Assembly (NCBI RefSeq): GCF_014672715.2
Contig: NZ_CP058566.2
Span: 1 to 64,000 of the forward strand
Direction: 5' to 3'
DNA from: Dehalogenimonas etheniformans
GTDB lineage: Bacteria; Chloroflexota; Dehalococcoidia; Dehalococcoidales; Dehalococcoidaceae
Length of the DNA: 64,000 bases
Shown here: positions 13,313 to 36,998 of the stretch, piece by piece
Position numbering within the stretch: position 1 is the first letter of the stretch
Layout of the letters: every line of letters starts with the position of its first letter
Program-made: the position numbers and the translations under genes
The notes under the pieces: model-generated
Told to the model about the DNA's origin: nothing
Seen by the model: only the letters and a program-made list of their open reading frames with translations
Databases searched by the model: none

Positions 13313-13537
13313 TCAACGTTGTACGGGCTTATTTCCGTATGCAAGTGTCATCGCAAAGCTCCAACCCGGTGCCTCAGAATCTCCGGCTAAAGCGTGAGCG
13401 AATGATATTTTATATATAACTACATCTTGGTTTTGAGATCTCAACCAATCATTAACCTTTTTGTCGAGTTTCTCTTCCTCTGGGGCTTGGAAGGATACAA
13501 CGCGAAAATCACTAGCTCGTAACGGTTCTGAAAACAT
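13313..13537 (-). CDS. Small hypothetical protein, island gene 5
   Basis: I do not recognise this 74-residue soluble protein. It has no signal peptide or membrane segment and contains a charged helix (APEEEKLDKKVNDWLRSQNQD) followed by alternating hydrophobic strands (VVIYKISFAHAL, WSFAMTLAY). A ribosome binding site (TAAGGAGAG) precedes its ATG. It lies 49 bp after the dUTPase-like gene and is probably the last gene of the radical SAM-UDG run. Its A/T-rich codon use matches those genes more than the surrounding chromosome. Confidence 0.62.
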   Translation of the reverse strand: MFSEPLRASDFRVVSFQAPEEEKLDKKVNDWLRSQNQDVVIYKISFAHALAGDSEAPGWSFAMTLAYGNKPVQR

Positions 13538-13586
13538 GTTTCTCTCCTTATAGCTTAATTCACAAATTCCGGAGCCTTATTAATAA

Positions 13587-14210
13587 TTATTGAATGAATA
13601 GCGCAATAATCGCGCTTATCAATGCGATTAATATGGCCCAAAAGACCTTCCCCCACGTCTCGAGTTGCGCAACCCGTTTATCAACATCGGAGAGTGATGC
13701 GCTTGTTCCTCTTAACGATGTCACAATTTCGACAGGAAGTGCTTTGTAACCTGGTTTATTATAGGGCTTTTCTGCGTCCTTCGATAGTTCATAGAAGAAA
13801 ATCATGAATGTCTTTTCTCGGTATTTAAGAACCACGTCTGTTGGGCCAGCGTTGTAAACAGAAAAAACGATTTTTCCTTCATAACCTGGATCGACATGAA
13901 AACCCGAAACATTGATCAAGCCTCGCGCTTTCTTCCGAAATTTGACCGAGATCAATCCCAAATAGTTTTTAGGGAGTTTGATAGTTTCATAAGTGTGAAG
14001 CAGCGCAAATTGACCTCTTGGAATACTTACAAAAGGTTTCTCTTGCGTTAGCTTCTGGGGGTATTCTTCTCGGCTAATGTATACTTCATCTCCAAGGCTG
14101 AGATCATAAGAGGCCCTTTCCGCCGCATTATCATCAAATTCACTCAAATGGTTTGGAAATAACTCAGATCGTTTTTCGATAATATCGCGATCAGTCAAAA
14201 ACCCTGGCAT
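13587..14210 (-). CDS. Membrane-anchored dUTPase/dCTP-deaminase-like protein
   Basis: The 207-residue protein has the trimeric dUTPase/dCTP-deaminase beta-fold (about residues 30-142). Landmarks are RASYDLSLGDEV, IPRGQFALLHT, SVKFRKKARGLINVSGFHVDPGYEGKIVFSVYNAG and REKTFMIFF. A C-terminal membrane helix follows (187-206). The family's VDPGY-G aspartate is present. The glutamate that activates water in dCTP deaminases (E138 in E. coli, in LEF-N) corresponds to a serine here (IVFSVYN). A deaminase is therefore unlikely; a dUTPase-like hydrolase or a nucleotide-binding sensor is possible. The family is normally soluble, so the tail is unusual. It follows the 3-TM gene by 15 bp. Confidence 0.78.
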   Translation of the reverse strand: MPGFLTDRDIIEKRSELFPNHLSEFDDNAAERASYDLSLGDEVYISREEYPQKLTQEKPFVSIPRGQFALLHTYETIKLPKNYLGLISVKFRKKARGLINVSGFHVDPGYEGKIVFSVYNAGPTDVVLKYREKTFMIFFYELSKDAEKPYNKPGYKALPVEIVTSLRGTSASLSDVDKRVAQLETWGKVFWAILIALISAIIALFIQ

Positions 14211-14225
14211 TTGGTCACCTACCCT

Positions 14226-14561
14226 TTAGTCAACTATTTGGGACAATAGCACTAATACGACCACTGCCACTGCCCCAACTCCCAAAGACAAAGCTAGCCG
14301 CAGCATGAACTGGACAACGCGATAGTCGCGACGCTCTCCTAATAAAGGGCTATTCGCTAAAGCGATAATTAAATAAATTGCGCCACCAAGCAATATGACA
14401 AAATACAGACTTCCAAGATATAGAGTATAGTCAATATCCAATCCGGTTAATTGGGGGGCTAATAGCCCTAACAAAACGAGTCCTAGTACAATAACTACCT
14501 CCCACCACCTGGGGCGAATAATATTATTCTGTTCTGATTCGCTAGGTTCGTTATTTGCCAT
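14226..14561 (-). CDS. Small 3-TM membrane protein, island gene 3
   Basis: The 111-residue protein has an acidic, polar N-terminus (NNEPSESEQNN) and three hydrophobic helices (about 19-36, 47-68 and 88-108) separated by a basic loop (GERRDYRVVQ). I do not recognise the family. Its start overlaps the end of the uracil-DNA glycosylase gene by 11 bases, so the two are probably translationally coupled. Its partner downstream also has a membrane anchor, and the two may form a membrane complex (inference). Confidence 0.65.
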   Translation of the reverse strand: MANNEPSESEQNNIIRPRWWEVVIVLGLVLLGLLAPQLTGLDIDYTLYLGSLYFVILLGGAIYLIIALANSPLLGERRDYRVVQFMLRLALSLGVGAVAVVVLVLLSQIVD

Positions 14562-15165
14562 TGTCTATCTCCGTTGTAGCATTCCGGGTTATCTTGCCAA
14601 GGACTTGATAATCAACGCATTGCTGGCATTTTGATCTTTGAGAAAACACTCGTGGGCTTGGATGAAATAATGGCAACAGAATGCAATTACGCCAATTTAT
14701 GGGTTCCGCTACGCTTGAACTCAATGTTACAGTATGGGGTTCGATGACCGCCAATGCCTTTAAAGCTATCCTACCAAGAGGAACAATAAATGCAGGGGAC
14801 AAAATATCAATTGTTTCTCTCAGAAAATCAGAACAATTGAATATCTCAGCTTTGGTCGGTGTGTCATTAACCCCAATCTGATTAATGGGATTACAGAGGA
14901 TTGCGTTTGTGATAAAGACTTTAGTACGGTCAATTTCCGCAGATTCTAAAAAAGAAGCGAAATTCCTGCCAGTTTGATCTCCAAAAAGAGGAATCCCATA
15001 CTTTTCTGCGCCCAAGCGCCCTGGGGCCTCGGCGATAAACATAACCTGGGCGTCCAATGGTCCATTAGATGGTCCAAGAACACGACGGCGCCCATTCATC
15101 CGGGGGCATTTGCTACAAATCTGCGCCCGCTTTACAAGGCTATCAAATCGCGACTGCTTTGTCAT
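14551..15165 (-). CDS. Fe-S uracil-DNA glycosylase, family 4/5-like
   Basis: The 204-residue protein matches the thermophile-type UDG fold that excises uracil from DNA. It begins with the cluster pair Cys17/Cys20 (CSKCPRM), has the glycosylase motif FIAEAPGRLG (46-50 region) with GIPLFGDQTGRNF, the second cysteine pair Cys91 and Cys111 (ILCNP and FNC), and the leucine-loop motif HPSPRV (168-173). All four 4Fe-4S ligands and the catalytic motifs seem intact. I use ATG 15165, which overlaps the radical SAM gene by 23 bases; ATG 15216 is an alternative. Its place between a radical SAM enzyme and a nucleotide-hydrolase-like gene suggests a dedicated role rather than general repair. Confidence 0.85.
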   Translation of the reverse strand: MTKQSRFDSLVKRAQICSKCPRMNGRRRVLGPSNGPLDAQVMFIAEAPGRLGAEKYGIPLFGDQTGRNFASFLESAEIDRTKVFITNAILCNPINQIGVNDTPTKAEIFNCSDFLRETIDILSPAFIVPLGRIALKALAVIEPHTVTLSSSVAEPINWRNCILLPLFHPSPRVFSQRSKCQQCVDYQVLGKITRNATTEIDNGK

Positions 15166-16210
15166 CGCTCCTAACCGCCGTTTTTTGGGAAATAAGGCAG
15201 TCAGGATCTTTGCCACCGCATATAGTGCCCGCCTTAATGGCTTTCTGGGCTAGACAGCCAGATTTACACTTCGAATATTGGTGACAGGTAATACATGTAA
15301 AATTGATCTCATCATGTGCTTGCCTAACAGTTTGAAGCAAGATTGACTTGTTCCAAATCTCCTCAAGAGAATGGTCTCTAACATTTCTAAACGGATCCAC
15401 GAATTCAAATCGCTTAAAGGCATCACAGGGGGCAACAGTCCCATCAGGATTTATTGTAAGCACGTTCAAACCCGCTTCACATGATGAAGGATTTTCTGGG
15501 CATATAATGTTAAATGGGGCTCCTGCGCGTACCATCAAATTAGGAAACTCCGCAGCAATCCTATTTTTTTTATCACACAAGGTTCTGAAGTTTTTCGCTG
15601 AAAGCTGGAGCATGTCCCGGTTAAACGCTCCGCGGCCTTGGGGTACGAATCGCAGCCAGCTCATTTTTCTCACACCCATGGAATCCACTAACTGGCCTAT
15701 ATCAAATAACTCGCCGATGTTTCCGGCGTGTGGCACCACATGAACCTCGGAGTTAACCCCGTGGCGTTTGGCAGTATTAAGGGCAGAAATAGTTAGGTTA
15801 AAGCTGCCATTGACCCGAGTAATCCATTCATGGCTGTCGGCGTTTGCCCCATGGAGACTAAAAATCGTTCGAATTCGCTTTCCTGCAAGAAAAGCAGCCA
15901 TATCTTCAGATAGGGCTTGAAGCACTCCCCTTTTCTCCATGATTCCTGTCGTATACAGAGAGACGTCGAGATCTTTATCCGTTGCTTTTGTCAAAACTAA
16001 CTTTATATCGGCATAAGTCAGCGGTTCACCACCGGATATGCAAATCTTCCGCCCACCCATTTCCGCAAACTCAGTGACAAGACTTTCAACGCGGTGTGCG
16101 TCTAGGAAAAGCATTGAAGAGGATTCGCCACTTGACGAACAGTGAAGGCAAGCCAACGGGCAATGACGGTTGACTTCTATCTTGAGTTCGCGGAGTTTGT
16201 AATTATTCAT
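15143..16210 (-). CDS. Radical SAM/SPASM enzyme, island gene 1
   Basis: The 355-residue enzyme carries the radical SAM cluster motif CPLACLHC (Cys17, Cys21, Cys24), the SAM-binding GGEPLTY, and a SPASM-type C-terminus. That C-terminus has SCEAGLNVLTINPDGTVAPC, then CITCHQYSKCKSGC and a final CGGKDPDC, giving ligands for one or two extra clusters. Such enzymes modify peptides, proteins or small molecules by radical chemistry. No RiPP precursor is obvious next to it. It leads the run rSAM-UDG-3TM-dUTPase-like-small protein and is divergent from an HTH gene. It is not viperin-like, because viperins lack SPASM. The substrate is unknown. Confidence 0.88.
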   Translation of the reverse strand: MNNYKLRELKIEVNRHCPLACLHCSSSGESSSMLFLDAHRVESLVTEFAEMGGRKICISGGEPLTYADIKLVLTKATDKDLDVSLYTTGIMEKRGVLQALSEDMAAFLAGKRIRTIFSLHGANADSHEWITRVNGSFNLTISALNTAKRHGVNSEVHVVPHAGNIGELFDIGQLVDSMGVRKMSWLRFVPQGRGAFNRDMLQLSAKNFRTLCDKKNRIAAEFPNLMVRAGAPFNIICPENPSSCEAGLNVLTINPDGTVAPCDAFKRFEFVDPFRNVRDHSLEEIWNKSILLQTVRQAHDEINFTCITCHQYSKCKSGCLAQKAIKAGTICGGKDPDCLISQKTAVRSDDKAVAI

Positions 16211-16359
16211 GTGACTCCCTGTTTCAAGACAAGGATGTTTAGTCTATTACGAAATCGGGGATTCGTCAATTGCTAGTTTAACACCGTGTAAAATATAGGT
16301 CAACAAAAATTATTCTAAGGACTATTGACTTCAACTTATCATGATGTTAATAATAACCT

Positions 16360-16782
16360 GTGTCAAAAAGAAGATATGGACGTCGCGGTTCAGCGGAGTT
16401 TGGCGCATTACTCAAACAGTGGCGAAAAGCCGTCCGGCTGACCCAAGCTCAGGCGGCCGAACGCCTGGGGATTAAGAGTGCGAGCCCTGGGGCTTACCTA
16501 AGCCTTATTGAGAAGGGGGAGCGCCCAATTCCTGACGCTGTATTAGCTAATGTTCCAAACGTCTATTCAAAGCGAGCTGAAGAGGTGATCAAAGCTGCAT
16601 ACCATCCCCAGATTCCTATGCCCCTGCTGGCATTAACTCTTGATCCTTCTTCTCTTCCGAAAAGTATTGAAGATTATCTCACTGAACTTGGCGACGAGGA
16701 AAAAAGGGACCTGATAAAATACGCAGCCTTTTTGGTGTTGCGCCATAAAACCGAACAAAACGATATTAAGGTCTCAACTTAG
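16360..16782 (+). CDS. XRE-family HTH regulator
   Basis: The 140-residue protein has an N-terminal Cro/C1-type helix-turn-helix (residues 12-55: EFGALLKQWRKAVRLTQAQAAERLG...YLSLIEKGERPIP) and a helical C-terminus (DYLTELGDEEKRDLIKYAAFLVLRHK). The start is GTG 16360; the region before it is A/T-rich. It is divergent from the radical SAM gene and so is a likely regulator of the island. Its stop lies 6 bp from the convergent end of the Mrr-like gene. Confidence 0.82.
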   Translation: MSKRRYGRRGSAEFGALLKQWRKAVRLTQAQAAERLGIKSASPGAYLSLIEKGERPIPDAVLANVPNVYSKRAEEVIKAAYHPQIPMPLLALTLDPSSLPKSIEDYLTELGDEEKRDLIKYAAFLVLRHKTEQNDIKVST

Positions 16783-16788
16783 CAGGCT

Positions 16789-17694
16789 TTATTCGCTAAA
16801 ATAATCCGAATCGAGCCTTTTCAGATTGTAACTAACCACGGGGCTTACCCCAATATTATGTTCAATCATCAGTTCGGTTAGTTTTGCCCCGTCAATAAGC
16901 ACTATTTTGCTTTCAATCTGCTGAGCATATCTCTCGGCTTCATCTGAAAAGCCCGATGTTGTGATAAAAATCCCTTTTTTTGCCCGCTGACCTTGAAGAG
17001 CCCCGGCGAATTTCTGCACCTCCGGTCTACTAACAGTGCCTTCCCATCGCTTGGCTTGAATATATATAACATCAAGACCGAGTTTGTCCTCTTTGATTGT
17101 GCCGTCAATCCCCTCATCACCGCTTTTACCAACAACTTGACCCGCGTCCTTGATACTACCGCCGTAACCCATTTGAACCAACAACTCGATTACAGTGTTT
17201 TCAAAGAACCCGGGATCACTGTCCTTAATTTTTTGAAGGAGTTCATCAGCAAGCGCACTATTAAGCTCGTTATAAGCATTTTCCAATGCTTCTTGAGGGG
17301 TGACAGCAGTAGTTTTATCAGGTGGCTTGGGAGTCTTTGGTTTCTCGTGACCAAGTTTCTTGAAATCTTGAAACTCCTTAAACTGTTCCAAATATTTTGC
17401 GTTAATACTATTCGGTTTAGCTTTTAGGACTTCTTTACCCCTATTGGTTATCTTAAAGCTTCCCCTTTTGGTTGACTCGATCAATCCAGCTTTTTTCATA
17501 TAAGTACGTGCCCAACCAACTCGATTATGGAAAACCGCCTGCCTGCCGCTTGGCAGTACCTTTCTTAGATCCTCAGGCATAAGATGAAATTGGTTTCCCA
17601 GCGAGGCTATGCTGTCTTGCAGGGTATGTTCTTTCCCATCAGAAATAAGTGTGAGCAGGGGTAGCATAATCGTCTGATAATCTGGAATTGGCAT
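16789..17694 (-). CDS. Mrr-like restriction endonuclease
   Basis: The 301-residue protein has an N-terminal winged-helix Mrr_N domain (IPDYQTIMLPLLTLISDG to GLIESTKRGSFKITNRGKEVL) and a C-terminal restriction-endonuclease-fold Mrr_cat domain. The catalytic pattern is visible as GDEGIDGTI, then VIYIQAKRW (D...QxK), then VQKFAGALQGQRAKKGIFITTSGFS. Mrr enzymes are type IV nucleases that cut modified or foreign DNA. The start is taken at ATG 17694; the in-frame ATG 17706 would add four residues. It stands alone on its strand, convergent with the HTH gene. Defence is the likely role, but the target modification is unknown. Confidence 0.88.
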   Translation of the reverse strand: MPIPDYQTIMLPLLTLISDGKEHTLQDSIASLGNQFHLMPEDLRKVLPSGRQAVFHNRVGWARTYMKKAGLIESTKRGSFKITNRGKEVLKAKPNSINAKYLEQFKEFQDFKKLGHEKPKTPKPPDKTTAVTPQEALENAYNELNSALADELLQKIKDSDPGFFENTVIELLVQMGYGGSIKDAGQVVGKSGDEGIDGTIKEDKLGLDVIYIQAKRWEGTVSRPEVQKFAGALQGQRAKKGIFITTSGFSDEAERYAQQIESKIVLIDGAKLTELMIEHNIGVSPVVSYNLKRLDSDYFSE

Positions 17695-17909
17695 TCTTTC
17701 CCCCAAGCTAAATTCCGTTTTTCAGCTTTGTCTTAATTTACGCTGTGCCAATTGAAAAGGCAACAATATTTTTTGTTGATGGTTGATCCACCCACCACAC
17801 TGCAAAACTCACAAAGACATGACGACTGAAAACTAACCCTTTCCCCCTTTGACCTCCCCTCCCAGCCTTGTATACTAAATATCGGTAACCCCCCACTAAG
17901 GAGCCCACG

Positions 17910-30244: not shown

Positions 30245-31762
30245 TTACTTCCTGTAGCCACCATCTTCGGCGGTTAGCGTACTGTTTATGCCGAATTGAG
30301 GCAGGGAAGAATCCCACCACTCTTCCGGATCTTTAAAGGCCCCATAACCGAAGGTTCGGCCCATATTAGCAAGAAAGCCATTGAATACTGGAACGTAAGA
30401 GATAGTCGACTTCAGCACAGAGTGGATGATAGCCCCGCTTCCAGTCGAGAAGGTGCAATAGGCGGCGCATGCGCTGCAACCGGAACCAGGAATGGCTTCA
30501 TTTACATAGTTCCTGCAACCCGATCCATCGTAATAGAACCTCTTAATTCCCGCTACATGCTGAGTATCAGGTTTGCCATTAATGGGAGGCATTTCATAGC
30601 TTGCTTCCCCGGCATCTAATCCTTGTATAGATTTGGAGGGGCAAGAATCGGCGCAGATGCCACAAGTCTGGCAGAAACGCCACACCCCGGCGTCGATTGG
30701 ATGGGTCTCGGCAAGCGGCATATCCGTAATTTGGCATAGGTCGGTGCTTCGCGGACCCCAGGCGGGAGAGATTACCCAGTTGGCCATGCGAGCGGCCTCA
30801 GCCTTGCCGGTGAAAACAGCGACACCAGGCGTGTTAAAGCAGTCGGTGCCATGTCCGGTGCCTCCAAACATGTTGTAACCAAGAGCCCTAAAGAACTGAT
30901 AGGTACTATAGTAAGCGATATTGCGGATTCCGGAGTTGGCTACAAGATTCGATTTAGACATCCTTGATGGGTAGGTCCTGTCGGTCTCTCTGGGTTCCGG
31001 TCCGCCCAGATACATTACGTTCAGGTCTTTGGTCGGGACCACCCACTTCTCCTTGGTGTAATAGGGCTCAGCTACATCCTCGTACACGATGGGTCTTGCG
31101 GCCGAGGCTGGAACATCAGCCGGATCGGTATCGATATATTTCGCGCCCGTAGCACTGCCCTTTTCATTCTTAGCCACTAACTTGGTGCGCCAGGTGCTAT
31201 CCAGATTGTTGAAGCCGGCTTCTGCCATACCAAACAGTCTAATGGCGGCGACCACCATCTTCGAGTTCTCTTCAGGAGTGCCCTGCCATTTGGGTACTCC
31301 AAGACCCTCCGGAGTCGTCACGTTTATCTTCCCATCAACCTCTGGGCCAAGAAATGACACCGACCATCGGTTGGACTGGCTCAAGGCAGACCTTAGAGCT
31401 TCCCATTTGTGACCGAAACCAGGCACATTGTCCTTCATCCTTTTCGCTTGAAGAGCGCCCGATTCAGCATCTATTTTTTCGACGTAGGCTTTCCCATAGT
31501 ATTTGGCACGGATATTGGAACACTGTCCCATATAGCGCCGGTCATAGCGGTGTATAACATTCCAATCTATTTCAGGCGTGGGATCGAGGCGCTCGCGTTC
31601 CTTGATATACCAGGGATGTTTTTGGAGTTCGCCGCTTGATGCCAATTCATCCAGGTCATGAAAGGTCGGAGCTATCATGGCGGCTCCGCCGATCCCGGCA
31701 CCTGCCACTCCAAGAGCTTTCATGAATTGCCTTCGAGAAACCGTGCTGTGAAATCCTGTCAC
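30245..31762 (-). CDS. rdhA: Reductive dehalogenase catalytic subunit RdhA (1)
   Basis: RdhA is the corrinoid/Fe-S enzyme that removes halogens from organohalides as terminal reductase, on the outer face of the membrane. The 505-residue precursor has a Tat motif (SRRQFMKALG, 9-18) and a hydrophobic h-region. It has the two ferredoxin motifs: C364/C367/C370/C374 (CQTCGICADSCP), and C416 with C429/C432/C436 (CSACAAYC). The start is GTG 31762 behind AAGGGAGGAAG. No rdhB anchor gene or regulator is adjacent. The halogenated substrate cannot be told from sequence. It is similar along its length to the rdhA at 35.5 kb. Confidence 0.95.
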   Translation of the reverse strand: MTGFHSTVSRRQFMKALGVAGAGIGGAAMIAPTFHDLDELASSGELQKHPWYIKERERLDPTPEIDWNVIHRYDRRYMGQCSNIRAKYYGKAYVEKIDAESGALQAKRMKDNVPGFGHKWEALRSALSQSNRWSVSFLGPEVDGKINVTTPEGLGVPKWQGTPEENSKMVVAAIRLFGMAEAGFNNLDSTWRTKLVAKNEKGSATGAKYIDTDPADVPASAARPIVYEDVAEPYYTKEKWVVPTKDLNVMYLGGPEPRETDRTYPSRMSKSNLVANSGIRNIAYYSTYQFFRALGYNMFGGTGHGTDCFNTPGVAVFTGKAEAARMANWVISPAWGPRSTDLCQITDMPLAETHPIDAGVWRFCQTCGICADSCPSKSIQGLDAGEASYEMPPINGKPDTQHVAGIKRFYYDGSGCRNYVNEAIPGSGCSACAAYCTFSTGSGAIIHSVLKSTISYVPVFNGFLANMGRTFGYGAFKDPEEWWDSSLPQFGINSTLTAEDGGYRK

Positions 31763-35483: not shown

Positions 35484-36998
35484 TTATTTCCGATAGCCGC
35501 CGTGAAGAGCGGTCGTGGTGGTGTCGATGCCGAGCATCGGCAGTGACTGATCCCACCATTCTTCCGGATCCTTGTAGTTGCCGTAGCCGAAAGTCCGGCC
35601 CATGTTGGCCAAGAATCCATTGAACACGCCGACATTGGCGATAGTACCTTTTAAAACGGAGTGAACAACAGCTGCGCTTCCCGTAGAGAAGGTACAATTG
35701 GCAGCGCAGAGGCTGCAGCCGGTACCGGGATAGGTCTCAGTGACCCACAGGCGGCAAGAAGCGCCGTTGAACCAAATCAACTTAGCGCCGGTGGAGTGTT
35801 GGGTATCTGGTTTGCCTTCGATATTCGGTTTGTCGAAGGAAGGTTCGGTGCCTTTCTTCGGAATAGAGTTGGAAGGGCAGACATCGGCGCAGATACCGCA
35901 GGTCTGGCAGAAGCGCCAGATACCAGCATCGATCGGTTTGCTTGGGGCGACGGGCAGGTCGATTGTCTGTGTCATGTCGAAAGCCCGAGGACCGTAAGCT
36001 ATAGAGATCGGCCAGTTGCTGTGCCTACCGCATTCGGCTTTACCGGTCAGCACAGCGATGGTGCCGGTGTTGAACATGTCCGACTGGTGACCCGTCAGAC
36101 CGATGCCACTGTAACCTAACCCATTGAGGAACTTGTGGGTACTGAAATATGCCATATTCCGGATGCCCGAATTGGAAACCAGGTTGGACTTGGACATGCG
36201 GGAGACGGCCGTGCGGTCGGTTTCGCGTGGTTCCGGTCCAGACAGGAAGATTACCCAACGTTCGGCGGTGGGGATGACGCCCTTATTTTTTGTATAGTAA
36301 GCCTTGCTGACATCTTCATAGACATACTTGAAACGTTCGGTGTCAGGGGGAGGATAGGGGACGGTCAGGTCGTTGTATTTGGAGGCGCTCACGCCATCGG
36401 TGGTATAGGAGACTACCAGCTTGTTGCGAAGGGTATCGTCAAGCTGGGCAAAACCGATTTCGCCAACGCCAAATAGCCTGGTGGCAGCCATGAGCAGCTT
36501 GGAGTTCTCTTCAGGACTTCCCTGCCACTTGGGAACCCCCATTGTATCAGGAGTAGCGCCCAGACTGGCACCTTCCGGCCCGGTGAATCCGGCGCTCCAG
36601 GTATTCGATTGGCCAAGGGCATTCCGGAGCACTTCCCACTTGTGGCCGAAGCCGGGGGTGTTACCCTTGAGCAGCTGGGCGCTCAATGCCCCGGAGTTGG
36701 CGCTCGCTTTGTTAACGCGATCGGTGCCGTAATAAACCGACTGAACATGGCCCATCTGGCCTTGCCATGCGCGGTCGTACCGCTTCATGATGTTCCAATC
36801 GACGTCGATGGTGGGATCTAGAAGTTCGCGTTCTTTGACATACCAAGGGTGTTTTTCGAGAGACCCTGCTGACGATGTCAACTCGTCTACGTCGTGAAAC
36901 ACTGGAGCGGTTAAAGCCGCCGCACCCAGGCCAGCCCCTGCTAATCCCAATCCTTTCATGAATTGCCTGCGAGATACGGTGCTGTGGAATAGGGACAT
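35484..36998 (-). CDS. rdhA: Reductive dehalogenase catalytic subunit RdhA (2)
   Basis: This 504-residue RdhA precursor is colinear with the one at 30.2 kb. It has a Tat motif (SRRQFMKGLG, 9-18) followed by GLAGAGLGAAALTAP. Its Fe-S motifs are C364/C367/C370/C374 (CQTCGICADVCP) and C415 with C428/C431/C435 (CSLCAANC). Conserved blocks such as LSGPEPRETDRT and FLANMGRTFGYG are shared by both. An AGGAGGG site precedes ATG 36998. There is no adjacent rdhB, MarR or two-component gene. The membrane gene divergent from it is not RdhB-like. The substrate is undetermined. Confidence 0.95.
   Translation of the reverse strand: MSLFHSTVSRRQFMKGLGLAGAGLGAAALTAPVFHDVDELTSSAGSLEKHPWYVKERELLDPTIDVDWNIMKRYDRAWQGQMGHVQSVYYGTDRVNKASANSGALSAQLLKGNTPGFGHKWEVLRNALGQSNTWSAGFTGPEGASLGATPDTMGVPKWQGSPEENSKLLMAATRLFGVGEIGFAQLDDTLRNKLVVSYTTDGVSASKYNDLTVPYPPPDTERFKYVYEDVSKAYYTKNKGVIPTAERWVIFLSGPEPRETDRTAVSRMSKSNLVSNSGIRNMAYFSTHKFLNGLGYSGIGLTGHQSDMFNTGTIAVLTGKAECGRHSNWPISIAYGPRAFDMTQTIDLPVAPSKPIDAGIWRFCQTCGICADVCPSNSIPKKGTEPSFDKPNIEGKPDTQHSTGAKLIWFNGASCRLWVTETYPGTGCSLCAANCTFSTGSAAVVHSVLKGTIANVGVFNGFLANMGRTFGYGNYKDPEEWWDQSLPMLGIDTTTTALHGGYRK

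Follow-up and report, generated by a model that had tools for sequence, protein, structure and literature searches.

Why should a radical S-adenosylmethionine (SAM) enzyme, a uracil-DNA glycosylase (UDG) and two membrane proteins be packed together on one strand? The question is raised by a 64,000-nucleotide stretch of the Dehalogenimonas etheniformans genome (contig NZ_CP058566.2, positions 1 to 64,000; hereafter the window), in which a radical SAM/SPASM gene is followed by genes for a 4Fe-4S UDG, a small protein with about three predicted transmembrane (TM) helices, a protein of the dCTP deaminase (DCD)/dUTPase fold ending in a TM helix (DCD-TM), and a 74-residue product. The original prediction saw in these five genes a linked nucleotide-based system. 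We found that the association is modular and conserved, and exceeds chance as judged by gene-neighbour conservation. Two modules, radical SAM with a TM protein and DCD-TM, and radical SAM with UDG, the latter with or without a thymidylate synthase (TS)-like gene, recur across phyla, whereas the complete five-gene set does not. The explanation that we favour, tentatively, is a nucleotide-centred conflict operon, probably directed against phage, with the mechanism proposed below.

Loss of the deaminase residue in the DCD-TM family

The DCD-TM protein of the window matches the Pfam DCD family (2e-13) and scores 70.7 bits against TIGR02274, under the cut-off of 92.8 for the dCTP deaminase equivalog. 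In a hidden Markov model alignment with two structures of E. coli Dcd, 2j4h, which keeps the catalytic E138, and 1xs4, which is the E138A mutant, this position is occupied by Ser117. Relatives were collected with an alignment of plasmid relatives led by the window protein, which gave 218 matching stretches in genome contigs, 80 of them kept. Among 82 aligned DCD-TM sequences, the Glu138 column holds serine in 57, alanine in 22, threonine in two and glycine in one. Deaminase activity is unlikely from this alignment, because the catalytic glutamate is replaced in 82 of 82 sequences. Lys94 and Asp107 are invariant throughout; the search pattern accounts in part for the constancy of the NVSGFHVD segment, but not for that of the other columns. 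A hydrophobic helix at the C terminus was seen in 77 of 81 proteins.

An AlphaFold2 model of the window protein (pLDDT 89) was compared with known structures by Foldseek, and matched archaeal dUTPases (P45), bifunctional DCD-DUT and Dcd; the fold is that of dCTP deaminases and dUTPases (8y1w, 1e-12, TMt 0.86). DCD-TM shares with these three enzymes the fold and the general ligand site, but it lacks the catalytic glutamate, has an altered phosphate-loop serine, and carries the added C-terminal TM helix. Since the deaminase residue is lost while fold and membrane anchor are kept, DCD-TM is best read as a membrane-anchored nucleotide receptor, for which the small TM protein is a putative partner. 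The family-wide loss of the glutamate supports the earlier suggestion that the membrane protein is a sensor.

Gene neighbourhoods of DCD-TM

We examined the genes within 5 kb of DCD-TM in 82 loci, which span many bacterial phyla and archaea. Nucleotide-modification genes lie beside almost all of them. The neighbours counted were HMUDK_hel (47 loci), ImmA (29), MazG (28), an all-alpha 'up' protein (25), TS-like (21), radical SAM (18), Nmad2 (12), TS (11), UDG (9) and TIR (7); at one locus, L047, TIR and Nmad2 occur together near DCD-TM. The radical SAM-positive loci number 17 when an inverted duplicate is counted once: L052 and L054, on contig JAAZKM010000250.1, are one locus in both orientations, likely an assembly artefact. 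Plasmid-borne relatives lie in islands with UDG, MazG, thymidylate synthase, HMUDK_hel, ImmA, helix-turn-helix (HTH) and C1 peptidase genes, and Shedu, caspase or pYEATS genes adjoin some of the plasmid copies. A phage origin is not favoured, because the viral collection yielded only a single DCD-TM contig.

The window DCD-TM falls in a 21-member tree clade (support 100/99), 17 rows of which have a homologue of the window radical SAM enzyme. A common gene order in these radical SAM-DCD loci is radical SAM, a small gene with 2–4 TM helices, and DCD-TM, often with DUF2284; in variants of archaeal type, genes of NDK, CYTH or TIR/SLATT type join them. Homologues of operon genes occur, for instance, in Halanaerobium (L062) and in Syntrophomonadaceae (L071). 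The 3-TM protein of the window is weakly similar to the TM protein of L048 (E 5e-5 in a 12-sequence set). In L086, a short Desulfohalobiaceae contig, genes for a 4-TM protein, DCD-TM, radical SAM and a UDG stand in a row, the UDG differing from that of the window. The exact five-gene set had no second occurrence in the genomes searched, so that the original expectation of neighbour conservation was borne out as linkage of the radical SAM, UDG, membrane and DCD genes beyond chance, but not as an order or set seen outside the window.

Several of these loci have further features. An archaeal operon (L050:1856-6832) encodes a ThsB-type TIR protein, a SLATT-domain membrane protein, a 220-residue protein, DCD-TM and radical SAM. 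A family of 210–223 residues recurs beside radical SAM/DCD-TM (L046:8132-8770; L050:4137-4799; L058:11400-12071); this archaeal 'KIWGLE' neighbour has no Pfam match and no convincing PDB match, and its identification as an ATP-grasp protein, based on likeness by eye, was dropped. DCD-TM or radical SAM islands with HTH, ImmA, TS-like and HMUDK_hel genes have an acyl-carrier-like small gene or acpS nearby (L039:1205-8893; L143:4103-8606).

The radical SAM enzyme and its linkage

The window enzyme matches Radical_SAM (1e-14) and SPASM (1.5e-10, residues 244-310) in Pfam, keeps the cluster cysteines in the motif CPLACLHC, and gave an AlphaFold2 model with pLDDT 87. It resembles prokaryotic viperins (pVip) in its core fold and in occurring with nucleotide enzymes in conflict-related loci. 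Membership of pVip, however, is defined by a radical SAM protein without SPASM; the window enzyme carries this domain together with CPLACLHC, and its pVip scores in PADLOC are weak (4e-11). The comparison with defence models gave a strong recognition for the neighbouring Mrr gene, these weak matches, and nothing for the other operon genes.

Single-protein pattern scans with the radical SAM enzyme found nothing in the genome and viral contigs. A reverse test was made with its profile against 348, 247, 247 and 149 genomes from the phyla of L071, L086, L046 and L075, respectively, and six independent new loci were examined. Two (L133, L142) combine radical SAM with TM and DCD-TM genes. Two others (L134, L135) have a TS-like gene (TIGR03283, 4e-15 in L134), radical SAM, and a UDG of the window subfamily (7e-53 and 2e-53) that overlaps the radical SAM gene, and the remaining pair (L143, L144) carries TS-like, HMUDK_hel and radical SAM. 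A further candidate, L152, was rejected as an independent locus: its TS-like gene and truncated radical SAM gene, followed by transposase-like genes (L152:6311-7998), form a transposon-interrupted relative of L134 that adds nothing. In the tree, the window enzyme groups with radical SAM proteins of the TS/UDG/HMUDK type (99/98). Since the window DCD protein groups with the radical SAM-DCD type, the window operon joins both modules.

The recurrent partner families have as their targets C5 of pyrimidine nucleotides or the corresponding bases in DNA. For this reason a pyrimidine nucleotide is the most likely substrate of the radical SAM enzyme. The same partners suggest another use of such chemistry, namely hypermodification of host DNA as self-marking, in which radical SAM and its partners would alter a pyrimidine in DNA or dNTP, UDG would remove errors, and Mrr would restrict. 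HMUDK_hel, TS-like and Nmad2 genes elsewhere and the type IV nuclease Mrr adjoining the operon fit this scheme. However, the window lacks a TS-like gene, a kinase or any other enzyme for loading, Mrr is not among the conserved neighbours, and a membrane-anchored DCD protein has no place in it; we regard it as rather unlikely.

A separate subfamily of UDG

The window UDG matches the Pfam UDG family (3e-23) and scores 78.3 bits against TIGR00758, under the cut-off of 125.3. It keeps the iron-sulphur cysteines C34, C37, C108 and C128 and the motif A glutamate (AEAPG) that mark Family 4; motif A reads AEAPGRLGAEKYGIPL and motif B HPSPR. With Family-4 UDG of T. maritima (TM0511, 1ui0) it shares the sequence family, the four cluster cysteines and this glutamate, but its subfamily, with motifs AEAPGRLGA and HP(S/G)PR instead of HPAA and with scores below family cut-offs, is split from housekeeping family 4 in the tree (98/98). 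Four UDG neighbours among 26 radical SAM loci correspond to a chance of roughly 1e-4 to 2e-3, an estimate based on an assumed, not measured, chance of 1–2% that a UDG-superfamily gene lies beside any gene. At L134:7018-8193, one gene encodes a fusion of UDG and a SocA_Panacea antitoxin domain, with an HNH nuclease gene alongside; the fusion suggests toxin-antitoxin-like control of the glycosylase.

Proposed function and the evidence against it

We propose the following mechanism. The radical SAM/SPASM enzyme would modify a pyrimidine nucleotide or deoxynucleotide, and the 4Fe-4S UDG would recognise the modified base, or uracil from the same pathway, and excise it from DNA, which would either shield the chromosome of the host or harm the DNA of the phage. 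DCD-TM, presumably trimeric by analogy, would bind the modified or imbalanced pyrimidine nucleotide at the inner membrane and, with its 3-TM partner, may act as membrane sensor and effector. The divergent XRE protein would regulate the operon. A role in conflict is favoured because of the associations with TIR, SLATT and Panacea. From its sequences, the locus also appears to bear the hallmark of nucleotide-modification conflict systems, in which nucleotide-modifying enzymes and a sensor/effector that binds nucleotides share mobile islands of patchy distribution. A bolder version, which we consider doubtful, holds that the radical SAM enzyme makes a viperin-like pyrimidine messenger, that a deaminase-dead DCD-TM receptor disrupts the membrane with its TM partner, that UDG clears host DNA as self-immunity, and that the receptor is common to many enzyme sets in bacteria and archaea.

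Several points weigh against a nucleotide-centred conflict operon. To our knowledge, there is no experiment on any homologue. Defence-gene enrichment around the radical SAM loci is not claimed, as a PADLOC scan of their flanks, made with no control set, gave scattered hits. In Foldseek, the nearest folds of the radical SAM enzyme are the peptide maturases SuiB and SkfB together with PqqE, ahead of BlsE and viperin, so that a peptide substrate is possible. The corresponding explanation would be a cluster for a ribosomally synthesized and post-translationally modified peptide, in which the radical SAM enzyme matures a small peptide such as the 74-residue product, the membrane proteins serve in its export or in the response to it, and UDG and DCD are incidental. 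Peptide maturases (MftC, PqqE) are among the best NCBIfam scores, and the 74-residue open reading frame (ORF) of no known family would supply a substrate. No NCBIfam radical SAM model reaches its cut-off, however, nothing matching the 74-residue ORF turned up in the related loci, where no recurrent small peptide gene was noticed among ORFs of at least 50 residues, and the recurrent partners are instead TS-like, HMUDK_hel, DCD-TM, UDG and Nmad2. We consider this explanation improbable.

Other points concern DCD-TM and UDG. DCD-TM may still hydrolyse nucleotides, because dUTPases are its nearest structural matches and the Asp107 typical of them is retained. The UDG subfamily occurs in 13 other genomes of 251 in the phylum, as solo genes with neither radical SAM nor DCD; these are the closest relatives of the window UDG within the phylum, and they speak against a fixed five-gene system. 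As the exact gene set occurs once, the pairing of the window UDG could be partly fortuitous, and the phylum distribution of radical SAM, DCD and UDG taken alone could reflect a chance arrangement. Both the Asp107 and the solo UDGs would suit nucleotide-pool hygiene, in which a dUTPase-like protein and UDG keep DNA low in uracil and an unrelated radical SAM gene stands alongside by chance. Against it, the same genome has a second, housekeeping-type UDG, the deaminase residue is lost family-wide while the membrane tail is conserved, and the radical SAM gene, found in one of 301 phylum genomes (the window itself; a DCD-like protein occurs in two of 301), lies repeatedly beside DCD-TM or UDG elsewhere. 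We consider pool hygiene improbable as well.

The island in the window

The features of the island are listed in Table 1. The ORFs of the original prediction all exist, and ORF coordinates and domain matches bear out their packing: the UDG and radical SAM genes overlap by 23 bp (counted from the internal ATG), the 3-TM and UDG genes overlap by 11 bp, and a spacer of 15 bp separates DCD-TM from the 3-TM gene, with a divergent XRE gene and a neighbouring Mrr gene. The island is A/T-richer than its flanks, as had been noted, with 42–47% GC across 13–18 kb against about 55% in the surroundings. In G256, a genome of the same genus that is collinear on both sides, about 1.7 kb replaces about 7 kb of the window (roughly 12.5–19.6 kb), and this region is therefore strain-variable. 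In the explanation that we favour, the operon is horizontally acquired.

Table 1. Features of the island (positions in the window)
Feature	Position	Strand	Remarks	Basis
Radical SAM/SPASM gene	15143..16210	-	355 residues	ORF, Pfam/NCBIfam, AlphaFold2 model, neighbourhoods
UDG gene, Family-4-like	14551..15216	-	221 residues from GTG; alternative ATG at 15165	ORF, Pfam/NCBIfam
Small membrane protein gene	14226..14561	-	111 residues; about 3 predicted TM helices	ORF list
DCD-TM gene	13587..14210	-	dCTP deaminase/dUTPase-fold domain, linker, C-terminal TM helix	Pfam/NCBIfam, alignment, model
74-residue ORF	13313..13537	-	no detectable family; possible last operon gene	ORF list, Pfam/NCBIfam
Divergent intergenic region, radical SAM/XRE	16211..16359		sigma-70-like matches on both strands	consensus matches only
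XRE-type HTH regulator gene	16360..16782	+	140 residues; divergent	Pfam
Mrr-type type IV restriction endonuclease gene	16789..17706	-	adjacent	Pfam, PADLOC
Strain-variable, partly A/T-rich segment	12500..19580		boundaries approximate; absent from G256	GC, genome comparison

The Mrr gene (Mrr_cat, 1e-36) is the only one strongly recognised by PADLOC (2e-85). The XRE protein matches HTH_31 (3e-8) and weakly resembles the HTH proteins of two other DCD-TM loci (about 1e-7). The 74-residue ORF has no family match in Pfam or NCBIfam. In the related loci, neither XRE, Mrr nor the 74-residue ORF was found to recur alongside the other operon genes. Repeats within the island look like chance matches. 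Elsewhere in the window there are two reductive dehalogenase genes (30248-31762 and 35487-36998, both on the minus strand), in keeping with an origin in the Dehalococcoidia.

Relation to known systems and significance

DefensePredictor (PMC13092281) validated E. coli systems with TS and 5-hydroxymethyldeoxyuridine kinase, and predicted, but did not validate, systems with aGPT-Pplase, MazG, dUTPase, NMAD and UDG; it cites Burroughs 2015 (doi 10.1093/nar/gkv1267). The neighbours of DCD-TM come from the same domain pool (aGPT-Pplase/HMUDK_hel, MazG, TS, NMAD, dUTPase, UDG), whereas the main text of that paper uses none of the terms 'radical SAM', 'dCTP' and 'deaminase'. The statement that no named system has this gene set held in the literature searched, but parts of the idea, with UDG, dUTPase, MazG and aGPT-Pplase as defence domains, had already been predicted there. 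The combination of radical SAM, UDG, TM and DCD-TM was found undescribed in a search that did not extend to the earlier bioinformatic studies Iyer 2013 and Burroughs 2015, where a prior mention is possible.

These results link a conserved, catalytically altered membrane protein of the DCD fold, present across bacteria and archaea, with an orphan radical SAM/SPASM family and with a UDG subfamily distinct from the housekeeping one. They offer Ser117, Lys94 and Asp107 as testable residues, and a small class of candidate substrates for the radical SAM enzyme. If DCD-TM does act as a receptor for nucleotides, many of the predicted nucleotide-modification defence islands would have their readout in common.

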